Origin: a virus
Virus record (IMG/VR): IMGVR_UViG_3300020032_000004
Span: 1-25,425 of that record
Reading direction: 5' to 3' (one strand)
DNA: 25,425 nt
A program made the position numbers and the translations under genes. The first letter of the stretch is position 1. Each line of letters opens with the position of its first letter. The notes beneath the pieces were generated by a model, which did no database searches, had not been told where the DNA came from, and was given only the letters and a program-made list of their open reading frames with translations. Shown piece by piece: positions 8,707 to 25,177 of this stretch.

Positions 8707-9990
8707 ATGTCAGATCTTACTGGAGTATGGAAGAGATTAGAAATGCCAGAATTATTAGCGTTTTATAATATGGGTAAGAGTGGGGGATATGAAGAATTAG
8801 CAAAATCTATAGGTACAATGAGTTCTGATATGGTACCTGAATTTAGAAATCCTGTTTATGGGCCTTATGTTTGGAGACAATTGAACATGGAGCAAAACAT
8901 TTTTGCTGTATTACCAAAATTAACATGGCCTAGATCAGGATGGAGAGCACAAACCGCATTTTCAACTGATAAGGAACATATTGCAATTGGTGAGTCTGAT
9001 AACATTCCAGATGCTGTATTCCCAGCATTAAAAGCAGTATATGCTAATGCAAAATTGGGTGCATTAACATTTGAAGTAAGTGAAGTATTAGCATCCATGT
9101 CTAAAACAGGAGACGATGTTACTGATTTAGAATATTTGAAATTATCATTAGGACAAGAATTTACAAAAATGATAAACAGAGGTTTGGGTAGAAAGGTTAT
9201 AGGTAGAGATGATGCATCTATTTTGACACACGATGATGTAATTTATACAAGGACAATTAATGGTACAACATATGATATATCTGAAAGAGTTGAGTTTGAA
9301 GCATTGGATAGAATTGTTTCAAGTTATGATGAGGTTAATGCATTTACAATTGCAGATGATACAAAGAATGTTGCAGCAAACATTTATAATATACAAAGAG
9401 CAAATGCTGATGGAACACCAGGTCCTGATACATGGGCTAATGCAGTTGTTAAATATGATGTTGATGGTCAAGAATTGACCGACGATTTAATAAGGCAATC
9501 ATTAATGGAAGGTAGAAAGAAAGGTGGATTGCCAAATGTAATGATTACTGGTTATTCAACATATGCTAAATTAGTTGGTTTATATACAACATTAGTAAGA
9601 TATATGGGAGATGTTGGAACTAAACAAACAATTGCAGGATTTACAAATGTTAAATTTGGATTAAGTGGTGTTGAAAGAGCACCAGGTATTGATGCTGGTA
9701 TAGAAGTTGCATCAGTTTATGGAATACCAGTTGTTCCAGCAGTTGATACTCCTAGTGATGGAGATGGATTCTTGGAAAGAATATATATATTAGATACAAC
9801 TGATTATGAAAAATCAGGTGAAGCAAGATTAGGATTGAGTGTATTGAGACCAACAGAATACTTCGAAACAAACAAACAAGACTTTGCATTATTAGAGAAG
9901 TTTGCAATTAGAGGTCTTTACAGAATGATTGGTGAAACAACTGCTAAGTTTTTGCCAGGACAAATCAAGATAAGGGATATCGTCGTTTAA
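8707..9990 (+). CDS. Major capsid protein (HK97-type fold expected)
   Basis: This 427-residue protein lies directly after protease and scaffold. It has the profile of HK97-fold capsid proteins: an N-terminal helical arm, an early region rich in Pro and Trp (about 45-80), a long helix around residues 140-165, and a C-terminal region ending KFLPGQIKIRDIVV. Codon choice differs from its neighbours: C-ending codons such as AAC, TTC, TAC and GAC are frequent, as expected for the most highly expressed virion gene. GAGGGTGA precedes ATG 8707. A T-rich terminator follows the stop. Confidence comes from position, length and expression-type codon use; there is no short diagnostic motif. Confidence 0.8.
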   Translation: MSDLTGVWKRLEMPELLAFYNMGKSGGYEELAKSIGTMSSDMVPEFRNPVYGPYVWRQLNMEQNIFAVLPKLTWPRSGWRAQTAFSTDKEHIAIGESDNIPDAVFPALKAVYANAKLGALTFEVSEVLASMSKTGDDVTDLEYLKLSLGQEFTKMINRGLGRKVIGRDDASILTHDDVIYTRTINGTTYDISERVEFEALDRIVSSYDEVNAFTIADDTKNVAANIYNIQRANADGTPGPDTWANAVVKYDVDGQELTDDLIRQSLMEGRKKGGLPNVMITGYSTYAKLVGLYTTLVRYMGDVGTKQTIAGFTNVKFGLSGVERAPGIDAGIEVASVYGIPVVPAVDTPSDGDGFLERIYILDTTDYEKSGEARLGLSVLRPTEYFETNKQDFALLEKFAIRGLYRMIGETTAKFLPGQIKIRDIVV

Positions 9991-10101: not shown

Positions 10102-10145
10102 TTAATTAACATAATTATATATTATAAAATAAAAGGTGTTGTTAT

Positions 10146-10181
10146 ATGAAATGTTTAGAGTATGAGGGCAAATATAAGTAA
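10146..10181 (+). CDS. Possible 11-residue leader peptide overlapping the endonuclease start
   Basis: AGGTGTTG at 10133-10140 is well placed for ATG 10146, which opens an 11-codon frame (MKCLEYEGKYK) ending at TAA 10179-10181. It overlaps, in another frame, the first codons of the endonuclease at 10162, which lacks its own GGTGAT. This may be a leader peptide that feeds reinitiation, the remnant of an earlier start lost by frameshift, or chance. Confidence 0.3.
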   Translation: MKCLEYEGKYK

Positions 10182-10932
10182 TAAAAAGAAATATTATAGA
10201 AATGGTTATAGAGATATTTATATAAGTAAAGAGTGGCTAAAGGAACAAATATTGTCTGGAAGGACAAAGCAAGATATAGCAAAAGAAATTAGATGTTGTG
10301 TAAAAATTGTATCTAATTTTATTAAGAAGTATAATCTTATTGATGAAATTAAATTGGAATGTAGGTCTTTTTGTAGAATATGTGATAAGTGGTATATTGA
10401 TAAAGATTGGTTATATCAAAAATATATTATTGAAAAATTAAGTTATGACGATATTGTAAAAATTATTGGTAGTAAATCTAATAGGCCTATAAGAAATTAT
10501 CTTAAAAAGTATGGTATTAAATCAAGAGATATGAGTGAATGTGGTAGAAGTAGGGTTGAAAAAATAAAGTTAAATATTACTGATAAATTTTTATCTATTT
10601 TTGATGGTTTAGTAATTAGTGATGGTTGTATATTTAATCATAAAATGGGACACAATACAAATTTTAAATTTGAACAAACAATATCTAAAAAAGAATTAGT
10701 TTATAAAGTTAAAGATGTATTTGAAAATACGGGAATTTGGTGTAGAATTGAAGTTAGAAAGGGTGGAGAACATATAATTTGTGGAAAAGATTGTGTTGTA
10801 AAGGATAGTATATATTTGCGAACAATGAAGCATCCATTTTTCACTGAACAGCGCAAAAGATGGTATAATGATGAAGGTAAAAAGATTATTCCAAGAGATA
10901 TTAAATTTAATGAATTGATGTTAGCACATTAG
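10162..10932 (+). CDS. LAGLIDADG homing endonuclease, N-terminal part up to an in-frame TAG
   Basis: The 256 residues read here begin with two helix-turn-helix-like segments (about 34-58, with TKQDIAKEI, and 93-119, with SYDDIVKII), then a first LAGLIDADG motif, IFDGLVISDGC (146-156, D154). The frame stops at TAG 10930-10932 within a second motif reading LMLAH-TAG-MRGDGC. The same frame continues for 88 codons at 10933, so the two parts form one double-motif homing endonuclease. The codon aligns with the Trp of the common LAxWxMxDG form of the motif; one G-to-A change from TGG would make it. Either the gene is dead or TAG is read through. It sits as a free-standing insertion between capsid genes with its own promoter. 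ATG 10162 is the first usable in-frame start. Confidence 0.75.
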   Translation: MRANISNKKKYYRNGYRDIYISKEWLKEQILSGRTKQDIAKEIRCCVKIVSNFIKKYNLIDEIKLECRSFCRICDKWYIDKDWLYQKYIIEKLSYDDIVKIIGSKSNRPIRNYLKKYGIKSRDMSECGRSRVEKIKLNITDKFLSIFDGLVISDGCIFNHKMGHNTNFKFEQTISKKELVYKVKDVFENTGIWCRIEVRKGGEHIICGKDCVVKDSIYLRTMKHPFFTEQRKRWYNDEGKKIIPRDIKFNELMLAH

Positions 10933-11199
10933 ATGAGGGGTGATGGATGTTTATCTAAAGTATATAATAGATATAGTATAACTTTATGTACAAATTCTTT
11001 TAATTATAATGATATTGAATATTTGGTTGATATGTTTAATAATAAATATAATATTAAATTTAGAATTAATGGGTATAAGGATGAATATGTTATGGTGTTG
11101 AATAACCAATATGATATTTATGGGTTTTGCAAAATGATTGAGCCATATATTGTTGATTGTTTTAAATATAAAGTTAGATGTTTATATGATGATGAATAG
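10933..11199 (+). CDS. LAGLIDADG homing endonuclease, C-terminal part after the in-frame TAG
   Basis: These 88 residues continue the upstream frame without shift, beginning MRGDGC, the acidic half of the second LAGLIDADG motif, and then a typical second-half fold with a SITLCTNSFNYNDIEYL segment. No in-frame start has a ribosome binding site; the GGGGTGAT at 10937-10944 serves only out-of-frame ATGs. Separate translation is therefore unlikely. The stop is also TAG (11197-11199); seven codons further on the frame meets TAA at 11218-11220, so if TAG is sense the full protein would be about 352 residues. Confidence 0.65.
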   Translation: MRGDGCLSKVYNRYSITLCTNSFNYNDIEYLVDMFNNKYNIKFRINGYKDEYVMVLNNQYDIYGFCKMIEPYIVDCFKYKVRCLYDDE

Positions 11200-11287
11200 A
11201 TTAGTAAATTTGTTAAGTAATTTATATATACTATTTAAATAGTTTGTTATATAAATATTTTATATAATTAATATTGGAGGTGTAGGT

Positions 11288-11569
11288 ATGTTTAAGAGTC
11301 CTGATATTGTTGGATTGAAAAAAATAAATAAAACTGTTGCATTACCTGATGTTGCTGCTGATTCAACAATTACAATTGATGTAGTTTTAGATGGCAATGT
11401 TTTGTTATTAGGAGTACCAGAAGTATCTGTTGATAATACTCTTTTAGTAACTCAAATTGTAAATGGTGGGGAAAATAAAATAACTGTTGCAATTACAAAT
11501 ACAGATGGTGCTAATACTGTATCGGGTGCTAATTTATCTGTTATTGCTTATGTTGTTAAAGGATTATAA
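11288..11569 (+). CDS. Small beta-rich protein, probable virion component
   Basis: The 93-residue product is almost entirely short beta-strands with Val, Thr, Asn and Asp, no Cys, and no signal peptide. The composition (for example TIDVVLDGNVLLLGVPEVSV) fits a capsid decoration or fibre-like protein, as does its place soon after the major capsid gene. GGAGGTG precedes ATG 11288. No named family is recognised, and the role is inferred from position. Confidence 0.65.
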   Translation: MFKSPDIVGLKKINKTVALPDVAADSTITIDVVLDGNVLLLGVPEVSVDNTLLVTQIVNGGENKITVAITNTDGANTVSGANLSVIAYVVKGL

Positions 11570-14469: not shown

Positions 14470-14562
14470 ATGGTGTTTGTTAAAATTTGTGATGGTTTAT
14501 ATTGTAATCCAAATATTGAATTAAGGTGTGAGATAGGAAAGTATAATCATTTTTCCATCTAA
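14470..14562 (+). CDS. Short Cys-rich ORF, possibly the N-terminus of an interrupted gene
   Basis: AAGGTGA at 14457-14463 is well placed for ATG 14470, opening a 30-codon frame with Cys at residues 7, 12 and 20 (KICDGLYCNPNIELRC). It ends at TAA 14560-14562, and the very next codon, GTG 14563, begins another open frame in the same phase that contains two more Cys (FCRYMFSGDC). Read together they would form one Cys-rich, zinc-binding-like domain, so the TAA may be a nonsense mutation. A free-standing 30-residue protein is the alternative. Confidence 0.45.
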   Translation: MVFVKICDGLYCNPNIELRCEIGKYNHFSI

Positions 14563-14886
14563 GTGGTGGTGAATGGTAAAGAGAAGGAGGTATTTTGTAG
14601 ATATATGTTTAGTGGAGATTGTGATGTTCATGAAAAAATAAAATTATATTTCCATGAATTTAAAATAAAATTCCTGTGTTATTATTATAAAAATTTAAAT
14701 AAAGATAAGGTTGATTTGAATGAATATTTAATGTGTTTGTTGAAGGAATTTAATAAAAAATTTGTTGATTTTTTGGATGAATATACTAACGGTATATATT
14801 CAATGTATTATAATTCTGAACGATATGAAAAGGAGATTTTTGAGATGTTTGATGAAGAATTGGAAAAAAATATCGGTGTATGTTGA
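14563..14886 (+). CDS. Unrecognised small helical protein
   Basis: The frame has 107 codons from GTG 14563 and is in phase with the Cys-rich ORF that ends one codon earlier. A start at ATG 14605, which follows AAGGAGGT at 14584-14591, would give 93 residues. After FCRYMFSGDC the protein is helical and rich in Lys, Glu, Tyr and Phe. It overlaps the next frame by a few dozen bases. No family is recognised. The true start, and whether it once joined the ORF before it, are unclear. Confidence 0.5.
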   Translation: MVVNGKEKEVFCRYMFSGDCDVHEKIKLYFHEFKIKFLCYYYKNLNKDKVDLNEYLMCLLKEFNKKFVDFLDEYTNGIYSMYYNSERYEKEIFEMFDEELEKNIGVC

Positions 14887-15103
14887 TTTGATTTATAATA
14901 GGATATTAGTTTGGATTACATTTTGTACATGTAAGGGCTCTATATTTTATAGGTTGTGGCTTAAAAAGTATATGGATGAATGTGAAGATGTTAGAAGAGA
15001 TGGAAATAAGGTATTTATGATATTCGATATTGAGAAGTTCAAAAAATTTTTAAGAGATTTATGTATTGAGGTAATGGTGAAGGATTACGATTCTGGAAAT
15101 TAA
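14852..15103 (+). CDS. Unrecognised small protein overlapping its upstream neighbour
   Basis: From ATG 14852 the frame gives 83 residues (begins MKNWKKISVYVDLIYN), with two Cys close together (FCTCKGS) and a Lys/Glu-rich C-terminal half. Possible earlier starts in the same frame run back to 14762, but that would overlap the upstream gene over more than 100 bases. No clear GGTGAT lies before any of them; GGAG at 14832-14835 is the best. Because the upstream frame ends by TGA inside this one, the pair could be one gene split by a frameshift. Confidence 0.45.
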   Translation: MKNWKKISVYVDLIYNRILVWITFCTCKGSIFYRLWLKKYMDECEDVRRDGNKVFMIFDIEKFKKFLRDLCIEVMVKDYDSGN

Positions 15104-16904: not shown

Positions 16905-17441
16905 ATGCTTGTTGCTGTGGAATGTCCAGATTTTTTAATGTCTGATGGTGTTGGTGTTGTTATATATTTTAATATGTGTAATTTAAAGTGTAAATATTGT
17001 GATTATAGAAATATGATAAAAAGTAAGGATTTGAAATTTGTTAAATTTGATGAATTGTTTAAAGTTATAGAAAAATATTTAAATTATGTTGATAATATTA
17101 TTATTACAGGTGGTGAGCCATTATTGTTTAAGAATGAGGTTGTGAAGATTATAGATTTTACAAAAAAGAGTGGAAAAGGTATTTGGTTATATACAAATTT
17201 ATTTGATGATATTGATGATATTCTAAATGATATTGATAAAGTTGTTGTTGATGTAAAAGGTACAAATGTGATTGAAATTATGTGTAATTGTGAATGTGAT
17301 AGTAATATGGCGTTAAATATTCTTGAAAATTATGTTAAATATTGTAATAATGATAAGTTTATATTTAGAGTATCTGATTGTGTTGATGATAATAATATCA
17401 AATTTAAGAATATTGAAAAATATGAGGTAAAAGGTTTATAA
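16905..17441 (+). CDS. nrdG: Anaerobic ribonucleotide reductase activase
   Basis: A 178-residue radical SAM protein: C25-x3-C29-x2-C32 (MCNLKCKYC) ligates the 4Fe-4S cluster, and ITGGEP (67-72) binds SAM. NrdG uses the SAM radical to form the glycyl radical on NrdD. The size, and the nrdD gene 80 bases downstream, identify it. It might otherwise be another short radical SAM activase, but the pairing is convincing. AAGGTGAT precedes ATG 16905. Confidence 0.85.
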   Translation: MLVAVECPDFLMSDGVGVVIYFNMCNLKCKYCDYRNMIKSKDLKFVKFDELFKVIEKYLNYVDNIIITGGEPLLFKNEVVKIIDFTKKSGKGIWLYTNLFDDIDDILNDIDKVVVDVKGTNVIEIMCNCECDSNMALNILENYVKYCNNDKFIFRVSDCVDDNNIKFKNIEKYEVKGL

Positions 17442-17520
17442 TATTGAGTTAGTTTTATTATATTTTTATTAAGTTGAAAAGTATAATATAAAAAATACAA
17501 CTAAACAGGGGGTAGTTTAT

Positions 17521-19347
17521 ATGGAGAAAAAGGAAATGGTCGAAATTGTTGAGGAATTAATTAATAAGAATGTCAAAGAAAATGCCAATGTTTTATTCAG
17601 TAATAATTTTGTTGAATTACAAGCACAAGCAATTTTTCAAAAGGAAATTGCAAGAAAAGATATATCTGATGAATTAATTAAAGTGTATGAAAATGGAGAT
17701 ATTCACATACATGATTTGAATTTTTGGTTAAGACCAAATTGCTTACAACATCCAATATATAAGATATTCAAAAATGGTTTATATGCACTTGGTTGTATTT
17801 CAAAACCAGCAAAGCATTTGGATACTGCATTAAGTCATGTTTTAAATGCGTTAAGTTTAGGACAGGCACATATGGCTGGTGGTCAATCAATACCTATGTT
17901 TAATGTTTGGATGGCGCCTTTTGTTAGAGGAGTGAGTGATGAAGAATTAAGGCAATGTATTCAACAATTTATTTTCCAATTAAATCAAATTAGTCCATCA
18001 AGGGGACTTCAAACAATTTTTGCAAGTATAGTGTTGTGTGAAGAAATACCAGAATTTATGAAAAATAAGGAAGTTGGATATAAGGAAGGTGTATTTGGTG
18101 ATTATGAAGAAGAGTTTTATAGGTTTACAGAAGTATTTATAGATGTTTTAAATGAAGGTGATGGATCGGGGCAACCATTTATGTTTCCAAATACAATTTT
18201 ATATATGACTAATGGTGATAGATTTAGTAATGAATTGAAAAAGAAAATAATTAAGAATAAGATGAATAATAGTAATGTGTATTTTTTGAATGGATTTAAA
18301 TATGGAAAAGTATTAGCAACAAGTATGGGTTGTAGGACTTATTTAGATGATACATTAACTGGTGATATATTTAAAGATGTTATGGGAACAGGTAATATGA
18401 GTTATATTACATTAAATATTCCAAGAATTATATTGAAGGCAATTAGGGAATATGGATTTGATATAAGTGAAGATAAATTAAAAGAATTTGTTGAATCTGA
18501 AACTGATAGATTAATTGATATTGGTGTTAGAATTTTATTAGCAAGAAGAAATAGGTTATGGAAATGTTGGGAAGAAGGTTGGTATCCATTCTTTAAAAAT
18601 GAGATATATAAGGATGAAAATGGTTGGTATTATAATCTTGGTTTTACGACAATGACATTTGGTATAATAGGTATAAGTGATTGTGAAAAAATATCTGGTG
18701 GTAAATTTGATGGTTTATGGTTTGTGAAAATGATTAAAGAAAAGGTAGATGAGTTGAATAAATTTACATATAGTGAATTGGCAGATAAATATGGTGTAGA
18801 ATATAATAATTATGGAAATGAAGAAATATCAAGATGGTCGTTAATTGGTTCGCCAGCAGAAGGTTGTACTTATAAATTTAAAAAATTAGATAATATGGAA
18901 TTTGGTGATATTCTTAAAAAAGTTGGTATTTATGATAGAAAATATTATGTTAATAGTATCTTTGTTGATGATTCTGAAAATTTAAATGCTATGGAAAAAA
19001 TATTATATGAGGAAAAATACCATAAATATTTAAATGGTGGTATAATTTGCCACATTTGGAATGCAGTTGATGGTGATAGTGTTGATGAATTAAAAATATG
19101 GGATTGGTTTATGAATATTATGAAGAATACAGAGTTAAGATATGTTACAATATCAAATGTAATTTGTTATTGTAGTGATTGTTCTCATAAATGGGTTGGA
19201 AGTAAATTTGATAATAAATGTGTAAAGTGTAATGGTGATAACATAAGGAAGTATGCTAAAATCACTGGTTATTTGTCAGAAATAGATAGATGGAATTCTG
19301 GTAAAATGGATGAATTTTATAATAGAAATAATTTTAAGATAAATTAA
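17521..19347 (+). CDS. nrdD: Class III anaerobic ribonucleoside-triphosphate reductase
   Basis: The 608-residue enzyme reduces ribonucleoside triphosphates to deoxyribonucleotides without oxygen. It has an active-site Cys in SMGCRTYLD (C271), a C-terminal zinc site C551-x2-C554-x12-C567-x2-C570, and the glycyl-radical segment KITGYLSEIDRWNSGK with Gly583. The N-terminal ATP-cone present in many cellular enzymes is absent: the protein starts close to the catalytic domain, as in shorter viral forms. The ribosome binding site (AGGGGGT at 17507-17513) differs from the GGTGAT used nearby. Together with NrdG, 80 bases upstream, it would make dNTPs for viral replication, and points to an anaerobic host. 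Confidence 0.9.
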   Translation: MEKKEMVEIVEELINKNVKENANVLFSNNFVELQAQAIFQKEIARKDISDELIKVYENGDIHIHDLNFWLRPNCLQHPIYKIFKNGLYALGCISKPAKHLDTALSHVLNALSLGQAHMAGGQSIPMFNVWMAPFVRGVSDEELRQCIQQFIFQLNQISPSRGLQTIFASIVLCEEIPEFMKNKEVGYKEGVFGDYEEEFYRFTEVFIDVLNEGDGSGQPFMFPNTILYMTNGDRFSNELKKKIIKNKMNNSNVYFLNGFKYGKVLATSMGCRTYLDDTLTGDIFKDVMGTGNMSYITLNIPRIILKAIREYGFDISEDKLKEFVESETDRLIDIGVRILLARRNRLWKCWEEGWYPFFKNEIYKDENGWYYNLGFTTMTFGIIGISDCEKISGGKFDGLWFVKMIKEKVDELNKFTYSELADKYGVEYNNYGNEEISRWSLIGSPAEGCTYKFKKLDNMEFGDILKKVGIYDRKYYVNSIFVDDSENLNAMEKILYEEKYHKYLNGGIICHIWNAVDGDSVDELKIWDWFMNIMKNTELRYVTISNVICYCSDCSHKWVGSKFDNKCVKCNGDNIRKYAKITGYLSEIDRWNSGKMDEFYNRNNFKIN

Positions 19348-21743: not shown

Positions 21744-21770
21744 TTTTATATATTTAATTTTTTGGATTAT

Positions 21771-21787
21771 AGAAATCTTTATATATG
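21771..21787 (+). promoter_or_regulatory. Probable archaeal promoter for the queD operon
   Basis: agaaatctttatatatg offers a weaker BRE and a good TATA box (tttatatat). Transcription would begin about 21805-21812, in line with the queD start at 21831 rather than any earlier start. Confidence 0.55.
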
Positions 21788-21830
21788 TTTAATGTATATT
21801 ATTATATGGAAAAAGAAATATGGTGAGATT

Positions 21831-22340
21831 ATGGATTGTATAAATGAATATATTCCAGCAAAAATAAATTGTGATTATGTGTTAGAAGTAAAAGAAAAGT
21901 TTAATTTTGATTATGCACATTTTTTATCAAATTATGATGGCAAATGTTATAATATTCATGGGCATACAGCAAAAGTATCTGTTGAAATTCATGGTAGTCC
22001 AGGTAAAGATGGTTTTGTTATAGATTTTGGTATAATAAAGAGTGAAATTAAAAATATTATAGATGAATATGATCATAAAATATTAGTATCTGCTAATTGT
22101 GTAGAATCATATGATGATGAGTTTGTTAATATAAAATATGGTAAGAATTATATGAAATTAGAGCGTGATATGGTTGTTATTACAGGTAGTGAACCAACCG
22201 TTGAATATATTTCGAGAAGAATATTATATTTACTTATAAATGTGTTAAAAAAGAAAGAATATAAAAATATTGAAGGTATAAGTGTAATAATTAGCGAAGG
22301 AGAGCATAATTATTGCAAAGTTTATGATACATTATGGTAA
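21831..22340 (+). CDS. queD: 6-carboxytetrahydropterin synthase
   Basis: The 169-residue enzyme has the QueD/PTPS motifs: FDYAHFL with a zinc His, CYNIHGH with the catalytic Cys and two more zinc His residues, GFVIDFGIIK, YDHKIL and PTVEYI, and a C-terminal ISEGE with the substrate-binding Glu. It turns 7,8-dihydroneopterin triphosphate into 6-carboxy-5,6,7,8-tetrahydropterin, the first dedicated step to preQ0. ATG 21831 follows GGTGAG at 21822-21827; an in-frame TTG at 21762 lies upstream of the promoter and is rejected. queE follows 12 bases after its stop, and the two encode consecutive steps. Confidence 0.9.
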   Translation: MDCINEYIPAKINCDYVLEVKEKFNFDYAHFLSNYDGKCYNIHGHTAKVSVEIHGSPGKDGFVIDFGIIKSEIKNIIDEYDHKILVSANCVESYDDEFVNIKYGKNYMKLERDMVVITGSEPTVEYISRRILYLLINVLKKKEYKNIEGISVIISEGEHNYCKVYDTLW

Positions 22341-22352
22341 AAAGGTGAAATT

Positions 22353-23075
22353 ATGGTAAAAGTATCAGAAGTTTTTGTTTCAAGGCAAGGAGAAGGTTTT
22401 TTAATGGGTCAAAGATGTTTATTTATTAGGGTATCTGAATGTAATTTAATTGACCATTGTTCTGGGTTTTGTGATACTGGTAAATTAGTTGGTGTTGATG
22501 TTGAAATTGATGATTTATGTAAAAGTGTAAGAGAAATTATTGATGAAAGTGATATAAGAAATGTTGTTATTACTGGTGGTGAGCCAACAATATATCTTGA
22601 TGAATTTCTTGAATTAATCAGTAAGATTGATAGGGATGTTTTATGGCAATTTGAGACAAATGGTGTACTACCAATTGATTTAGAAAAAGTAATGAAAAGT
22701 ATTAAAATTGATAAAAATAGAATAATGTTTGTAGTATCCCCAAAAAATGGTACATTTATTAATGAAACATATTATGGACTATATAAAACATCATTAATGT
22801 CTGGTAATCCGTGTGTGGTTTTTAAATTAGTTGTCATGCCAGTATTAGATAAGATTGATAATTCAAATTCGTGTCCATTTTTTAGTGCAACAGATATATC
22901 TGATATAATTAATTTTTTACTTGATAATGAAGTAAATAGAAATGATATTTGGTTAATGCCATTTGCAAAAAGTGTTGATGAGTTAGATAATACTGCAAAA
23001 ATTGTATATGAGATTGCAAAATTATTTGATGTAAATTATAGTGATAGATTACATATTAGATTCAATTTTAAATAA
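22353..23075 (+). CDS. queE: 7-carboxy-7-deazaguanine synthase with atypical radical-SAM motif
   Basis: The 240-residue enzyme turns 6-carboxytetrahydropterin into 7-carboxy-7-deazaguanine. It has the QueE pattern: VSRQGEGFLMGQRCLFIRVSE at the start, VITGGEPT, FETNG, and the SPKNGTF segment. The 4Fe-4S cluster motif is unusual: the cysteines of ECNLIDHCSGFCDTG are spaced C-x5-C-x3-C instead of C-x3-C-x2-C. The DNA reads tgt, five codons, tgt, three codons, tgt. It follows queD by 12 bases, with AAGGTGA at its start. The identity is strong despite the odd spacing. Confidence 0.85.
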   Translation: MVKVSEVFVSRQGEGFLMGQRCLFIRVSECNLIDHCSGFCDTGKLVGVDVEIDDLCKSVREIIDESDIRNVVITGGEPTIYLDEFLELISKIDRDVLWQFETNGVLPIDLEKVMKSIKIDKNRIMFVVSPKNGTFINETYYGLYKTSLMSGNPCVVFKLVVMPVLDKIDNSNSCPFFSATDISDIINFLLDNEVNRNDIWLMPFAKSVDELDNTAKIVYEIAKLFDVNYSDRLHIRFNFK

Positions 23076-23101
23076 TATTTCTATTTTTGGGGTGATAAAA
23101 G

Positions 23102-24097
23102 ATGTTATATTTTTTAAAATTAGAACCAATACTTAATAGATATAATGTTGATTGGAATGTGTGGTTTCCAGAAATGTTTATGAAAAAAGGTATAGAATAT
23201 TGTTTAGTAGAAGGTGATAATAATATTTTTAAATGTGATGGTAGAATGTATTTTGATTTTAAAAGTGTAATGTCTTGGAAGTATGAACAATTAAGTGATT
23301 TAATGAAAGTGTTGGGTTCATCATCTTGTGTTGATGATGTGGTATTTATACCAGATTTATATTTTCCAGGTATAGAAAGTTTGTATTTTTTAAAGAAGTT
23401 AAATAATATGAATATAAAAATTGTATCTGTGATACATGCTGGTTCATATATACCTTATGATTATACTTATCTTAATGGTATGGAGCGAATATGTAAGGAT
23501 TTAGAAGAAGTATGGTTAAATATGTGTGATTTAATATTTGTTGCGACTAATTATCATAAAGAAAAAATATTAGAGTGTAGAAATGTTGATGAGGATAAGA
23601 TTAAAGTTATTGGATTACCTTGTGATGTTGAAGGTTTAAGTAGAATGTATAGAGTTAATGAATATGATAGAGTTAGAGATTTTGTTTATGCTGGTAGATT
23701 GGGAATTGATAAAGGGTATGATATGATAAAATTTATTGAATCACATTGTAATATTGATATATATAAGACATTTGAGCATAAATTAGATAAATCTGATTAT
23801 TATATGGAGTTGGCAAATTCTAAAAGTATTATACAACCAAGTAGGTTAGAAACATTTTCATATGCTGTTGTTGAAGCAATGAGTTTAGATTTAATTCCTA
23901 TTGTTCCAGATGGTATAGCATTTGATGATTATGTTCCAAGGAAGTTTAGATATGATCCATATGATATTTTTGATTTTATATATAAAGTTGAAAAAGTTAA
24001 TGATTATAAAGGCGAAATAAATATGAAAAAATATGTTAAGAAATATCAATATCAAGGTATAATTGGTGAGATGATTAAAGAAATTGATAAATTATAA
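23102..24097 (+). CDS. GT4-type (GT-B fold) glycosyltransferase
   Basis: The 331-residue protein has the GT4 hallmarks in its C-terminal half: a nucleotide-sugar binding strand AGRLGIDKGYD (197-207) and PSRLETFSYAVVEAM (246-260) with the E250-x7-E258 pair. The N-terminal half has the acceptor domain, with HAGS near 112. It transfers a sugar from an activated nucleotide; the acceptor is unknown. GGGGTGAT at 23089-23096 is a strong binding site. It lies between queE and the dpdA-like gene, so DNA or nucleotide glycosylation is a reasonable guess, and a surface or virion glycan the alternative. Confidence 0.8.
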   Translation: MLYFLKLEPILNRYNVDWNVWFPEMFMKKGIEYCLVEGDNNIFKCDGRMYFDFKSVMSWKYEQLSDLMKVLGSSSCVDDVVFIPDLYFPGIESLYFLKKLNNMNIKIVSVIHAGSYIPYDYTYLNGMERICKDLEEVWLNMCDLIFVATNYHKEKILECRNVDEDKIKVIGLPCDVEGLSRMYRVNEYDRVRDFVYAGRLGIDKGYDMIKFIESHCNIDIYKTFEHKLDKSDYYMELANSKSIIQPSRLETFSYAVVEAMSLDLIPIVPDGIAFDDYVPRKFRYDPYDIFDFIYKVEKVNDYKGEINMKKYVKKYQYQGIIGEMIKEIDKL

Positions 24098-24109
24098 GTG
24101 GTGTATAAT

Positions 24110-25177
24110 ATGTGTAGGAATAAAAATTTTATAATGTATTTTAGTGGATTTTCAAATGCTCGCCTTGAAAAGATGTTAAATTTTGTGAGGAATGGAGTTA
24201 GAATTGATGGTATATGTTTCAATTATTTGGATGTTTATATAATGACTGAAAAAACAAGGAATAATTTTATGAAAACAATTGAAGAGTTAAAAGAGTATGG
24301 TGTTGGATTTTTTTGTGATTCTGGGTGTTTTCCAATATTGTATGTATATGATAGGTTATCTGGAAGTGATGTTAGAACGCCTAGAAGTTTAAATAAACAT
24401 GCATTAGATATAGTACAAAATAATAAATATGATATACTAATAGAATCTTATATTAGTTTTTTGAAGGAATATGGTGATTTATTTGATTTTAAAGTTGAAT
24501 TTGATTTACAGAAAATAGTTGGTGAAGATAAAGTATGGAAATGGCGTGATATGTTTAATAAGAATGATATTCCTATAAATCTTGTAATTCATGCTGAACA
24601 TAGTAAAGATGATATTGAAAAAATGGTTGAATTTGTTAATTATAATTGTGGTGGTATGTCACTTGCAGGTCCACGAAGTACGCATCCATCAGTATTTTCA
24701 TCAAAAGAGCGTCAAGCATCAATTGTTAAGAAAATAAATAAAGATATATGGATACATTTTCTTGGTTTTGGTGAAATGAAATATATTGGTGAATTTATTG
24801 GTAAAGGTTTAATACAAAGTGCTGATAATACAAGTTGGGTTAATAGTACAATGTTTGGACATCAATATATATTTGATTGTGAAAGTGGTATTATGAGAAA
24901 ATTATCGGTTGGTAGAATATTTAAAGATAAAGGATGGGTTAAAAGAATGAATTTGGTTAAAAATAGGTTTTATGAAAGATATGATAAATTAGTTGAATGG
25001 GGATTTGATGTTAAAACAATGGAGGAATTATTTACAAAGGAGCGTATTAGTGATTCTTGGAATTGGTTTACTCTATTAGAGTATCAGGAATTTTATAATT
25101 TTATAAATACAGAAAAAGGATTTAATAAGATATGTGGAAGTGCAAAAAATACACAAACATTGGATAAATGGTTTTAA
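24110..25177 (+). CDS. dpdA: TGT-like base exchange enzyme, probable viral DpdA
   Basis: The 355-residue protein resembles tRNA-guanine transglycosylases of the DpdA group, which insert 7-deazaguanine bases into DNA. It has FFCDSGCF (67-74), like the DSGGF of TGT with Asp70 in the base-binding site, a KVEFDLQ strand (128-134), a GGMSLAGPRS segment and SADNTSW (237-243) with a likely nucleophile Asp239. The zinc-ligand Cys cluster of tRNA-specific TGT is not seen. It follows GT4 and queD-queE, whose product it would use, directly or after QueC. ATG 24110 has GTGGTG at 24098-24103. The family call rests on motifs and context; an archaeosine-type tRNA enzyme is the alternative. Confidence 0.65.
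   Translation: MCRNKNFIMYFSGFSNARLEKMLNFVRNGVRIDGICFNYLDVYIMTEKTRNNFMKTIEELKEYGVGFFCDSGCFPILYVYDRLSGSDVRTPRSLNKHALDIVQNNKYDILIESYISFLKEYGDLFDFKVEFDLQKIVGEDKVWKWRDMFNKNDIPINLVIHAEHSKDDIEKMVEFVNYNCGGMSLAGPRSTHPSVFSSKERQASIVKKINKDIWIHFLGFGEMKYIGEFIGKGLIQSADNTSWVNSTMFGHQYIFDCESGIMRKLSVGRIFKDKGWVKRMNLVKNRFYERYDKLVEWGFDVKTMEELFTKERISDSWNWFTLLEYQEFYNFINTEKGFNKICGSAKNTQTLDKWF

Follow-up and report, generated by a model that had tools for sequence, protein, structure and literature searches.

The LAGLIDADG_2 family (PF03161) includes the double-motif endonucleases I-SceI, which is intron-encoded, and I-WcaI, and free-standing LAGLIDADG endonuclease genes are encountered in several viruses, including gp166 of Halogranum virus HGTV-1 and orf197b of Bacillus phage phiNIT1. 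The homing-cycle model, in which homing genes decay after fixation, is established (PMC1654191; PMC13405050). In-frame TAG codons in otherwise open genes are known from the pyrrolysine (Pyl)-containing genes of Methanosarcinaceae and Methanomassiliicoccales. For example, Ca. M. alvus has stray in-frame TAGs in 16 genes while only 1.6% of its genes end in TAG, and Pyl-users can avoid TAG as a terminator (PMC4153887).

This paper describes a TAG-interrupted endonuclease gene in the 25,425-base IMG/VR record IMGVR_UViG_3300020032_000004, the whole of which is referred to as the window. The gene resembles those of I-SceI and I-WcaI in the double-motif fold of its product, but it is free-standing, and its product has helical repeats in a long N-terminal region. 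With Pyl-containing genes it shares an in-frame TAG in an otherwise open frame and, as far as the window goes, a scarcity of TAG-ending genes, and it differs from these in that no pyl genes were found, that the TAG occupies a Trp column, and that TAG terminates genes of related viruses. The locus very probably represents an ordinary selfish gene, namely a free-standing gene for a homing endonuclease that has entered the decay phase of the homing cycle, and as such would provide a clear case of decay in archaeal tailed viruses of a little-known group. It also calls for caution, in that a frame left open past an in-frame TAG that takes the place of a conserved Trp has the look of a young nonsense mutation.

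The interrupted endonuclease gene

The coordinates and frame given in the original prediction (ATG 10162, TAG 10930-10932, TAG 11197-11199, and TAA 11218-11220) were exact, and under translation table 11 the frame that holds both motifs in one chain is broken by the first of these TAG codons (Table 1). That the two parts make up one double-motif endonuclease was borne out by the PF03161 profile, which scored 48.6 and 33.0 bits for the first and second part, respectively, and 97.5 bits for the joined protein (cut-off 25), covering profile positions 2-161 of 168 with both motifs included. Moreover, the match to PHROG 11023 also crosses the TAG junction, and D154 and D261, the acidic residues that end each LAGLIDADG helix, are invariant in the alignment of relatives. 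The AlphaFold model of the endonuclease (pLDDT 74.5) places residue 257 within helix 251-261, which is the second LAGLIDADG helix, and, among PDB entries, the model matches I-SceI and I-WcaI most closely (Foldseek E 1.5e-12 to 5e-11), with I-SceI as the best (TMt 0.73-0.76). An I-SceI-like LAGLIDADG_2 fold is predicted from this model, and DNA cleavage and homing by the gene product are putative functions suggested by family membership. The TAG at 11197 as the true terminator of the gene counts for little as evidence, because a TAA follows only six codons later.

Table 1. Positions of the endonuclease gene, its parts, its neighbors, and a second gene with lesions in the window
Feature	Position	Strand	Details
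Major capsid protein gene	8707..9990	+	PHROG 24667; relatives in kin; upstream neighbor of the insertion
AGGTG Shine-Dalgarno and ATG 10146	10134..10181	+	Spacing 7; 11 codons to TAA 10179-10181; out of frame with endonuclease
Endonuclease, N-terminal part	10162..10932	+	Translation from ATG 10162 to TAG
N-terminal region, helical, with DNA-binding-like repeats	about residues 17-125	+	N-terminal matches to PHROG 8446/7545; model helices 23-116
LAGLIDADG motif 1 with conserved Asp154	within 10162..10932	+	PF03161, 48.6 bits (N-terminal part)
In-frame TAG, residue 257	10930..10932	+	Inside second LAGLIDADG helix; Trp column in relatives
Endonuclease, C-terminal part	10933..11199	+	Rest of motif 2 with Asp261, second LAGLIDADG domain; PF03161, 33.0 bits
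TAG closing the C-terminal part	11197..11199	+	Near the C-terminus of relatives
TAA	11218..11220	+	Six codons past the natural-looking end at 11197-11199
Small gene downstream of the insertion	11288..11569	+	In kin, no endonuclease separates the capsid gene from the gene after it
Second broken-looking gene	14470-15103		Shine-Dalgarno and ATG 14470; in-frame TAA 14560-14562; other frame near A7 run 14864-14870

Insertion site and viral kin

The window virus is distantly related to the haloarchaeal Druskaviridae (24% for the capsid protein and 23% for the portal protein). No relatives were retrieved from IMG/VR when the endonuclease, capsid, or NrdD protein was used singly as the query; queries made from alignments did retrieve them. 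These alignment-guided scans revealed a wide kin group, in most members of which the portal and capsid proteins matched at 28-40% and 25-40%, respectively. One kin locus (L036) sits in an archaeal metagenome-assembled genome, and one further genome of the same phylum has a related capsid gene. No match to the endonuclease was found by tblastn in 39 kin contigs. In L052, the closest kin, the end of the capsid gene is overlapped by the gene that follows it, and it is at this place that the window has a 1.3-kb stretch containing the endonuclease gene. By these sequence comparisons, the endonuclease gene is a lineage-specific guest at the capsid-gene junction.

The TAG column in related endonucleases

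The TAG was compared with the corresponding residue of 12 relatives, which come from phages, from an archaeal virus, and from IMG/VR contigs. Trp occupies this column in 11 of them (L002, L003, L005, L025-L029, L032, L034, and L035), the exception being a Leu in a Pseudomonas phage protein (L004). L033 likewise reads HW at this column, L030 repeats L026 there, and I-SceI, which matches in sequence over the second domain, has its own Trp (LAYWFMDDG). The proposed alignment of the TAG with the Trp of the second motif was thereby upheld, and the agreement on Trp is far beyond chance in these alignments. The suggested search for relatives that keep the TAG turned up none among the aligned sequences, nearly all of which carry Trp instead; a TGG becomes TAG by a single G-to-A transition. 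The viral free-standing LAGLIDADG endonucleases, including L025-L029 and those of HGTV-1 and phiNIT1, are 26-34% identical to the window protein, and three of them (L025, L026, and L029) have the layout of N-terminal repeats followed by LAGLIDADG domains in common with it, but all are uninterrupted, with Trp, at the codon where the window gene has TAG.

The events at this locus may be reconstructed as follows. An I-SceI-like (LAGLIDADG_2) free-standing gene would have inserted downstream of the capsid gene of an archaeal tailed virus, ahead of the gene that comes next, after which a nonsense change at the conserved Trp codon in the second LAGLIDADG helix would make translation stop after 256 residues. 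As this stop precedes the second active-site Asp, no active enzyme would be produced, and a frame lesion at the 5' end was possibly a second hit. The decay reading draws on what could be observed directly: the structure of the reading frame, the homology across the TAG, the Trp in relatives, the lack of the gene at kin loci (0/39 contigs), and the broken alleles in relatives (L029 and L030). It implies that TAG acts as a terminator in the host of this virus and that the endonuclease product is probably inactive. The intact frame past the TAG and the preservation of both catalytic Asp residues count against it.

Start sites of the gene and of its C-terminal half

The endonuclease ATG at 10162 has no Shine-Dalgarno match, unlike most other window genes, and the sole well-served ATG before the gene is the out-of-frame ATG 10146. 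A frame lesion at the 5' end as a second lesion is only suggestive, because a Shine-Dalgarno match of this kind occurs by chance at about 6% of other ATGs. The claim that no further decay is visible became doubtful, in that the 5' end of the reading frame lacks a served in-frame start.

The C-terminal half had been proposed to lack a usable start, but an ATG exists directly after the TAG, at 10933-10935, although it is not preceded by a Shine-Dalgarno sequence. This ATG occupies a column that is Tyr or Phe in relatives, and its position immediately 3' of the TAG would suit a split enzyme, for which ribosomes stop at the TAG and restart on the adjacent ATG, after which the two halves assemble. 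None of the relatives is split at this site, however, and the break lies within the LAGLIDADG helix (251-261) that packs both domains. We consider a split enzyme extremely improbable, because the restart would cut the protein inside its interface helix, and because the ATG is without a Shine-Dalgarno.

TAG usage and the capacity to decode TAG

The other possibility raised in the original prediction is that the host of the virus translates the TAG, through pyrrolysine or a suppressor tRNA, and that full-length enzyme is made. The intact frame and catalytic residues past the TAG are in line with such decoding, as is the precedent of Ca. M. alvus, and the host of vir335, a kin virus at a very great distance (portal 22.7%), belongs to the Pyl-using Methanomassiliicoccales. 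However, the site is a conserved Trp, to which the Lys-like Pyl is unsuited, and no other window gene is lengthened if TAG is read as sense.

The other 28 window genes end in TAA (23) or TGA (5) and none in TAG, as would also be seen with a TAG-decoding host, whereas the share of TAG among stop triplets is 11% in intergenic DNA and 17% off-frame. With about 11-17% expected from local sequence, the absence of TAG ends counts against the decay reading; the probability that it arises by chance is ~0.6-4%. It may be an effect of composition, because an AT-rich kin contig (L037) also has no TAG among the ends of its 17 genes. In kin, TAG is a common terminator: in the first eight kin contigs 16 of 95 genes end in it, as do two genes of the closest kin, and in 7 of 25 kin the capsid gene itself ends in a TAG that directly follows the conserved C-terminus and lies 2-226 codons ahead of the next stop.

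Machinery for TAG decoding was looked for in the window, in kin, and in the phylum to which L036 is linked. This is the only archaeal phylum tied to kin, and PylS was above the cut-off in none of 87 genomes from it, although it may not be the host phylum of the window virus. Matches to the PylS family in this phylum reached at most 37 bits against a cut-off of 178, and 12 of the 13 matching controls also remained far below it; these matches presumably represent other aminoacyl-tRNA synthetases. No tRNA genes were found in the window, and the kin contigs held no tRNA with a CUA anticodon, the only tRNA genes there being tRNA-Trp (CCA) in L038 (2872-2943) and tRNA-Met in L011 (6972-7051). Moreover, RNA structure downstream of the TAG was no more stable than that of shuffled sequences (z +0.95), and no Rfam element matched after the TAG. 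The suggested search for pylS or a CUA tRNA thus gave nothing in favor of decoding.

Efficient decoding by an archaeal host, with pyrrolysine or a Trp-like suppressor placing an unusual residue in the domain-interface helix of a full-length endonuclease, would explain the zero TAG ends among the other window genes, and is very unlikely on the whole of this evidence. The slight probability that we leave to TAG decoding is retained because of those 28 gene ends. If it were true, a viral selfish enzyme would depend on the expanded code of its host, which would be notable. Most likely, the endonuclease TAG does not point to an altered genetic code. Between the two options originally put forward, a dead gene and a decoded TAG, the first is supported by the Trp that is never TAG in relatives, the TAG stops of kin, the searches for PylS and CUA tRNAs, and the lesions found elsewhere, and the second is unsupported.

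Lesions in other genes and contig quality

Lesions in the window are not specific to TAG, because the gene at 14470-15103 contains an in-frame TAA as well as an apparent frameshift, for which TAG decoding offers no explanation. Two related endonuclease genes, of the same family, carry one visible inactivating lesion each, of kinds that differ from the TAG: L029 has a frameshift in the final third of the gene, and L030, over 1,413 bases, differs from L026 only by an in-frame deletion of 18 nt, by which motif 1 is lost. In the latter pair of virus records (from 2983), the 18 nt were lost between AGATGGG repeats. The clean frame after the TAG in the window gene fits a recent change. Once a first nonsense change has occurred, a gene with this composition is expected to acquire the next after a mean of ~0.010-0.018 substitutions per site, and zero further stops are compatible (95%) with up to 0.03-0.055 substitutions per site after gene death; the clean frame is therefore no argument for function.

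The lesions of gene 14470-15103 are either real decay or contig errors. Such errors are possible in view of this frame-changed gene, with its shift beside the A7 run, and of the portal gene of kin contig L011, which is split by a frame change. The TAG could by the same token be an artifact of sequencing or of metagenome assembly, with a sense codon in the real virus, and an exact scan of IMG/VR for the junction stretch, in which the middle base of the TAG was allowed to be G or A, hit no further record, although near-identical records may be hidden. In assembled contigs, single-substitution errors are rarer than indel errors, which argues against an error at the Trp codon, and most of the remaining 28 genes of the window have uninterrupted reading frames; an erroneous TAG is accordingly improbable.

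Other features of the viral genome

The window has an extreme strand bias, with 19.5% G and 6.0% C on the coding strand (GC skew +0.53; +0.43 in L052). A 550-base non-coding stretch (563-1113), containing two 145-nt direct copies that are 72% identical, precedes the portal gene, and in L011 and L036 the terminase gene lies at this place, directly upstream of portal. At 16905-19347, the gene for the anaerobic ribonucleotide reductase NrdD adjoins that for a radical-SAM protein, maybe its activase, which suggests an anaerobic host. Finally, the region 21762-25177 encodes QueD/PTPS-like, radical-SAM (QueE-like), and queuine tRNA-ribosyltransferase-like proteins together with a glycosyltransferase, a set that is partly common to L038, L062, and L080 and possibly functions in 7-deazaguanine DNA modification.
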